The notes under the pieces are model-generated. The model saw only the letters and a list, made by a program, of their open reading frames with translations. It ran no database searches and was not told where the DNA came from. From Patescibacteria group bacterium (GTDB taxonomy: Bacteria; Patescibacteriota; Gracilibacteria; UM-FILTER-43-11), in the NCBI GenBank assembly GCA_018817125.1, contig JAHIUN010000002.1:1-64000 (forward strand): a DNA stretch of 64,000 nucleotides, in the 5' to 3' direction. The translations under genes and the position numbers were made by a program. Positions 51,025 through 52,149 of the stretch are shown here, in pieces. Within the stretch, counting starts at the first letter, position 1. Each line of letters begins with the position of its first letter.

Positions 51025-52149
51025 ATGTTTCATTTACTCAAACAATCCGGCAAAGCCCGTCGCGGCACCCTTAAAACCGCCCACGGGGAGATCCAGACTC
51101 CTTTTTTTATGACGATCGGCACGGTGGGGGCGGTCAAGGGCCTGCTTCCGTCTGAAGTTAAGGAGCTGGGTGGTCAGGTGATTTTGGCAAACACATATCA
51201 CCTCCACCTGCGTCCGGGTGAGGATGTTGTGGAGAAAGCGGGCGGTCTGCACAAATTTATGGACTGGGACGGGCCGATCTTAACCGATAGTGGCGGGTAT
51301 CAGGTCTTTTCATTATCCAAAATCCGGAAACTGAAAGACGACGGGGTAGAATTCCAGTCACATCTGGACGGGAAGAAGATTTTTTTAACCCCCGAAAAGG
51401 CAATCGAAATTCAGATGAAATTGGGATCCGACATCATGATGGTCTTAGACGAATGCCCCGCCGCCGATGCGGAACGGAAATACATCGAGAAGTCATTGGA
51501 ACTGACCACCAAATGGGCACAGCGTTGCAAACAATTCCACGATGCCCCACAATCGCCCCACAATCGCCCCACAATCGCCCCACAATTGTTATTCGGCATC
51601 GTCCAAGGCGGTATGCATCCGGATCTCCGTGAACGTTCCGCTAAAGAACTGGTGGCCATCGATTTCGACGGATACGCGATCGGCGGTTTGTCGGTCGGTG
51701 AACCGAATGAAGTCATGTATCAGATGATCGAACATACGGTGCCTCATTTGCCGGAAGACAGGCCCCGGTACCTGATGGGGGTGGGCACGCCGCAGGATAT
51801 TCTGGAAGCCGTGGAGCGGGGGATCGATATGTTCGACTGTGTGCTTCCCACCCGGAACGCCCGCCACGGCCACCTGTTCACCTCGGAAGGGATCGTGCGG
51901 ATAAAAAACGAGCGTTATAAAGAGGATTTTACCCCTCTGGATCCGGAATGCGGATGTTATACCTGCAAGCACTTTACCAAAGCCTATCTGCGCCATTTAT
52001 TTATGGCGAACGAACTTTTAAGTCTTCGCTTAAACACCCTCCACAATGTCGCGTTTTATCTGAATTTAATGAAACAGATCCGCGAGGCGATTGAAGAGGA
52101 TCGGTTTGATGAATTTAAAAAGGAATTTTTAAATAAATATAACCCGTAA
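51025..52149 (+). CDS. tgt: tRNA-guanine transglycosylase
   Basis: Exchanges guanine 34 for preQ1 in queuosine tRNAs. Signals: [31 protein letters not shown] with the general Asp89, [22 protein letters not shown] and the nucleophile in [18 protein letters not shown]. The zinc site is C-x-C-x2-C-x(n)-[19 protein letters not shown] ... LNTLHN. Length 374. About seven extra residues relative to E. coli Tgt sit near residues 174-189 ([14 protein letters not shown]), encoded by four tandem CCCCACAATCG units. No other queuosine genes are in the window. Confidence 0.96.
51545..51588. repeat. In-frame tandem repeat inside tgt
   Basis: Four 11 bp units CCCCACAATCG, read in frame as [12 protein letters not shown]. 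The unit resembles the CCCACAATTCGG unit of the intergenic repeat at 39565. Confidence 0.85.

Follow-up and report, generated by a model that had tools for sequence, protein, structure and literature searches.

The queuine tRNA-ribosyltransferase gene (tgt) in the window, i.e., the whole stretch of 64,000 nucleotides that was analysed, contains four tandem 11-bp units that very probably represent an in-frame, single-arm member of a short tandem/inverted repeat family resident in this genome, arising by copying or by local growth. The gene is one example of how resident repeats have colonised permissive protein loops in frame across the genome. Judged from the aligned sequences, the loop that precedes the IVQGG motif of Tgt is, furthermore, a family-wide hotspot which holds different repeats in different species.

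The tgt gene (51025-52149, forward strand) is an intact ORF of 374 amino acids, identified by TIGR00430, PDB matches and conserved residues. Its product scores 561 bits against TIGR00430, above the curated cut-off of 307, and matches Tgt proteins of the PDB with an E-value of 1e-133. The active-site and zinc-ligand residues of a bacterial Tgt are retained, with D88, D142, C144, Q194, D271, C309, C311 and C314 all present in columns that are invariant or near-invariant among 50 Tgts. The dN/dS of tgt between two congeners (G000, the genome of the window, and its sister species G001) is 0.095, and the sequences indicate that Tgt is under purifying selection.

The four units were located by the preliminary description at 51545-51588 (forward strand), where they are indeed present: three identical copies of CCCCACAATCG are followed by a fourth unit, CCCCACAATTG, with one mismatch. 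TRF delimits the array at 51544-51586, with a period of 11, 3.9 copies, 100% matches and a score of 86, and the unit family is found elsewhere in the genome. The array is translated in frame within the 374-aa ORF; CCCCACAATCG is free of stop codons in all three sense frames, which all read the same 11-residue cycle, as 11 is indivisible by 3. Relative to the shortest loop of the family (that of G005), the net gain is 33 nt, which equals three units. In the 1.03-Mb genome, which was scanned in stretches (1,032,810 of 1,033,235 bases) using simple long-ORF calls and no trained gene finder, the tgt array scores highest among the coding arrays listed (period of 12 or not divisible by 3). A period not divisible by 3 was observed for 21 coding arrays with a score of at least 50, 17 of which are heptamer-type, whereas codon-shuffled versions of the predicted genes yielded none or one such array, with best scores of 45-52. 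The tgt array is not a product of chance.

The AlphaFold2 model of Tgt places a coil at residues 174-187, between a helix (151-173) and the strand that bears LFGIVQGG (188-193), which agrees with the surface loop ahead of IVQGG that had been proposed. The pLDDT is 72-75 in the blocks covering residues 171-190, compared to a mean of 90.9. This loop (about residues 174-187; 51544-51586, forward strand) is also the segment where alignment gaps reveal a recurrent repeat site of the family. In TIM barrels, the loops that lead from a helix to the next strand are on the side away from the active site. The loop had been described as about seven residues longer than that of E. coli Tgt; it is longer, the figure being eight residues relative to the best PDB match (375 aa), whose sequence we take to be that of E. 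coli Tgt.

The repeat family to which the tgt unit is assigned is most apparent between genes, where a typical 11/12-mer element consists of several units, a short centre and then complementary units. The CCACAATCG unit makes up hairpins of this kind between genes, each arm comprising about four 11- or 12-bp units. In the window, a two-arm element of 12-bp units (39565-39661, unstranded) has a TCGAATAGTGGC-type left arm and a GCCACTATACGA / CCCACAATTCGG right arm, fills the gap from a stop codon to the next ATG, and folds as RNA with -39.6 kcal/mol (z -4.66). Another intergenic element with two arms of 12-bp units is found at 35815-35922 (unstranded; TRF arrays at 35822-35868 and 35871-35918, fold z -3.33). 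A [CG]AAT-type core is present in 53 of 61 noncoding arrays with a period of 11 or 12, against 16 expected from shuffled units. The resemblance of the tgt unit to the element at 39565, already suggested in the preliminary description, is borne out by the CCCACAATTCGG units there and by the recurrence of the family throughout the genome and in its sister species, whereas controls gave zero matches; at the level of sequence, the two belong to the same unit family. Compared with the two-armed intergenic elements, the tgt array is a single arm, without a strong fold (z +1.08) and not palindromic. Several gap-filling elements (39565-39661 of the window, G000:C12:71723-71824 and G000:C13:44235-44328) end a few bases before the ATG and hence occupy the place of the ribosome-binding site. 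An Rfam search of the window returned two tRNAs and nothing else.

Repeat arrays are likewise found inside other genes. Heptamer or 12-mer arrays lie within leuS, argS, elp3, ksgA, rsmH, gatB, carB, folP and a PBP1C gene. Within the window, TRF detected heptamer arrays in carB (14-mer CGAATCAGAAATCC, 1.9 copies; 57402-57428, forward strand), gatB (GTCAAATGTCAATT, 2.3 copies; 48407-48438, forward strand) and rsmH (AATTTTCAATTTTA, 2.6 copies; 63128-63164, reverse strand), and two further arrays in a 275-aa ORF (263-298 and 830-861, together spanning 263-861, reverse strand). Because of their periodicity at the DNA level, the arrays in leuS, argS, elp3, carB, ksgA, rsmH, folP and gatB are probably insertions. 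In the PBP1C-family gene, 12-mers occupy one site in G000, G001, G010 and G005, and are fewer or absent in G016, G009 and G015. Arrays of 12-mers were also noticed at the N-terminal ends of a TruB-like ORF (G000:C1:47225-47962) and a pilin-like ORF (C2:56305-56814), both named by eye, where they may be upstream sequence rather than coding.

The queG gene of the queuosine pathway (TIGR00276; G000:C6:2052-3224, locus L208) carries a two-arm 11-mer element in frame, which shares its CACAATGAAATGG centre with the intergenic element at G000:C12:71723-71824. When translated, QueG matches this intergenic element (E 7.5e-4) as well as G001:C26 (E 2.8e-4), and with a fold z of -5.18 this intragenic copy is palindromic. 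The QueG loop varies among relatives as the Tgt loop does, with a GSDGGSDR repeat in G012, in an alignment from which the rows of G008 and G004 (wrong reading frames) were left out. In addition, LPAGRRG / LPAGRQG peptides were observed in the L208 QueG, near its SRFYASVD segment, and in the QueG of G012 (L214); these probably derive from another palindromic repeat inserted in frame.

Internal length variation of Tgt is confined to the pre-IVQGG loop among the 15 family members with usable sequence, the other alignment gaps being termini or assembly breaks, including one truncated sequence (G006). The loop of G000 contains four CCCCACAATCG units, while that of G001, a sister species of the same genus, contains AAATTCG heptamers. 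The loops of G007, G010 and G011 hold GTAGAGACG...CGTCTCTAC hairpins, that of G016 holds a sequence related to, yet different from, these hairpins, those of G008 and G002 hold AGCTCCA/AGCTACC-type heptamers, and that of G012 holds 3.4 copies of a 17-mer. Short loops with no insert occur in G003, G004, G005, G006, G009 and G015. The loop peptides are unrelated from species to species and, despite such varied loops, the family Tgts with a complete match all have open frames with zero internal stops. The distance between the DEC and QG motifs is 38-45 in 63 of 64 remote bacterial Tgts (the remaining value, 191, is a motif mis-hit) and 38-42 in the insert-free family members and G001, as opposed to 49-57 in the other insert carriers; the loop that holds the heptamer array of G001 is nearly ordinary in length. 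In a Tgt tree from which the loop was left out, with remote Tgts as outgroup, the presence of an insert changes at least five times, and as the inner branches are mostly weak, the independent events so counted are a lower bound.

The repeats in the loop generally recur in the genome that carries them, with further copies elsewhere for four of the five loop repeat types. With one mismatch allowed, CCACAATNGCYCCACAAT is matched 11 times in G000 (three of these in tgt), 10 times in G001, six times in G007 and once in G010, with no match in the other 14 genomes searched or in the controls. The AGCT-type heptamers, represented by AGCTNCNAGCTNCNAGCT, were found 32 times in G008 and four times in G002, the two genomes with that heptamer in the loop, and not in 14 other genomes. 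Copies of the GTAG hairpin number 27 in G007, 10 in G011 and four in G010, each of which holds one in its Tgt loop; in addition, there are 13 in the remoter G022 and one to four in four others. The unconstrained inner stems of these hairpins vary but stay largely self-complementary. Pairs of AAATTCG are commonest in G001 (seven, three of them in tgt), with zero to three elsewhere. The 17-mer of G012 was seen only in tgt in the approximately 140 kb of that genome examined, and is therefore better read as a local duplication. The agreement between loop repeat and genome repertoire is thus good but not exclusive. Furthermore, the four-fold CCCCACAATCG array also occurs in G001 in another, secreted-protein-like gene, with the same peptide reading; no homologue of this gene was found in the G000 contigs except for the array itself. 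The density of 7/11/12-mer arrays, compared in samples of about 110-300 kb per genome and in G000 in full, is low in the insert-free G003, higher in the carriers G000, G001, G002 and G012, and intermediate in G009, which is insert-free yet not array-free, with arrays of 11/22- and 12/24-period. In this last genome, a run of 86 C residues (L262, 10977-11062; G009:C5) at a contig end is probably an assembly artefact.

These observations are consistent with a scheme in which the elements, which have heptamer relatives and are for the most part hairpins of about 4+4 units of 11 or 12 bp that fill the space between genes, would enter at random places, or grow there from a unit. The birth of copies may involve copying and/or slippage or fold-back synthesis. 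Within genes, copies would survive only where they preserve the frame, have no stop on the sense strand and encode a peptide that the loop tolerates, and would become fixed in those genes where the encoded peptide falls in a permissive surface loop, the inserted peptide being presumably near-neutral. Different lineages would then hold different repeats in the loop because it is the one tolerant site of Tgt. As the tgt copy is one-armed and has no strong fold, the insertion of a ready element is indistinguishable from the growth of a single unit by slippage; its near-identical units speak for recent local growth. More tentatively, an undescribed, transposase-independent process may copy or grow 7-, 11- and 12-mers throughout the genome (the 11- and 12-mers having a common [CG]AAT core) and repeatedly swap repeats at permissive loops. 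If so, such a process would give core enzymes of translation and tRNA modification loops that are specific to a lineage.

As to what might move the elements into genes, a role for RAYT (Y1_Tnp, REP-associated transposase) is doubtful. A Y1_Tnp match is present in nine of nine loop-insert genomes versus one of six insert-free ones (Fisher probability 0.002 by hand arithmetic, ignoring relatedness, and with too few independent pairs on the tree), although some of these matches may be fragments. REPs of the GTAG/CGTC type are known inside genes for DNA repair, RNA modification and synthetases, and two Xanthomonas species carry different REPs at about the same recB site (PMC3733652). The GTAG...CTAC hairpins in the Tgt loops of G007, G010 and G011 start with GTAG as these REPs do. 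In contrast, the G000 tgt array has neither a GTAG tag nor a palindrome, and no array of 11-mers, 12-mers or heptamers and no GTAGAGACG hairpin lies within 1 kb of any of the four Y1_Tnp-like genes of G000 (C1:96626-97177, C11:80987-81625, C15:13436-13834, which is apparently truncated, and C3:26154-26789). The link between RAYT and the repeats is correlative only.

It is improbable that the tgt array is purely local, i.e., that slippage multiplied, on the spot, a CCCCACAATCG which had arisen in the loop by chance and is unrelated to the intergenic elements. The near-perfect units and the single arm would fit such an origin, as does the 17-mer array of G012, seen only in its tgt. However, the unit family extends across the genome and the genus, the same four-fold array stands in another gene of G001, queG has a two-arm element, and one and the same unit is unlikely to have been used again by chance.

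The preliminary description also considered the array a possible phase-variable tract, in which the gain or loss of one 11-bp unit by slipped-strand mispairing would turn Tgt off or on. The arithmetic behind this proposal is correct: the loss of one unit shifts the frame and leaves 198 aa, the gain of one leaves 237 aa, and a change of three units in either direction keeps the frame; the array is, moreover, slippage-prone, because its units are nearly identical. Nonetheless, phase variation of tgt is unlikely and receives very little credence from us, since the frames of relatives are open with other repeats in them, both short and long, many housekeeping genes and intergenic gaps contain similar arrays, and Tgt appears to be under purifying selection. 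Relatives had been expected to be informative on this point, and among them loop length and repeat type both differ, with every complete-match homologue devoid of internal stops. The loop gives the impression of a place where the landing or growth of repeat DNA is tolerated, not of a genetic on/off switch. An adaptive loop, with the peptide (or the mRNA or DNA repeat) recruited for a Tgt-specific function such as protein contact or regulation, is scarcely credible: many members of the family do have a long loop, but its peptides differ from species to species without any relation, the short form is present in six members, and no RNA fold was seen for the tgt array.

In cyanobacteria, short tandemly repeated repetitive (STRR) heptamers occur in tandem and are dispersed through the genome. 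By description, the heptamers found here are similarly dispersed and tandem, whereas the 11- and 12-mers lie outside the STRR description. In Geobacter metallireducens, elements of four tandem heptanucleotides occur in 49 intergenic and intragenic copies and were proposed to be regulatory, with a related class having heptamers on opposite strands (PMC2700814). The elements described here similarly have short tandem units, about four per element, between and within genes, but differ from these 7-bp units in that 11- and 12-bp units also occur, along with a cross-species hotspot. The Rickettsia palindromic elements (RPE; Ogata et al. 2000, 2002) are described, in the summary given by PMC10969869, as palindromes of about 150 bp with a conserved encoded peptide. 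As with RPEs, one repeat family is found here both between genes and in frame within unrelated housekeeping genes, in a manner compatible with protein function; unlike RPEs, again by description, these repeats have tandem 7/11/12-mer arms, comprise several families and include the one-armed tgt copy.

The best-known cases of in-frame repeat colonisation of genes come from Rickettsia and from a small number of genomes rich in REPs, and our literature search, incomplete in coverage, returned no report of it for the bacteria studied here. What is new are the tandem 11/12-mers and heptamers, and one loop shared by several repeat types across genera. Unrelated repeats in a single loop across genera, with two congeners differing, offer a natural series on repeat entry, exchange and protein tolerance, and a loop that looks unusual in a genome of this kind can consist of repeat DNA and not reflect adaptation.

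In the class to which the family belongs, tgt of some genomes has many TGA codons in frame, which would suggest Gracilibacteria-like Patescibacteria. Long Tgt loops also occur in some remoter members of the class. In one class-level relative (L023 of G031), a TCCCCGCGAAAGCGGGGA hairpin sequence was found in the same Tgt loop, and the hotspot may therefore extend beyond the family. In G014, tgt is split over two contigs (G014:C205 and G014:C13) at residues 170/183, which corresponds to the loop; a repeat that interrupts the assembly at this place would produce such a split.
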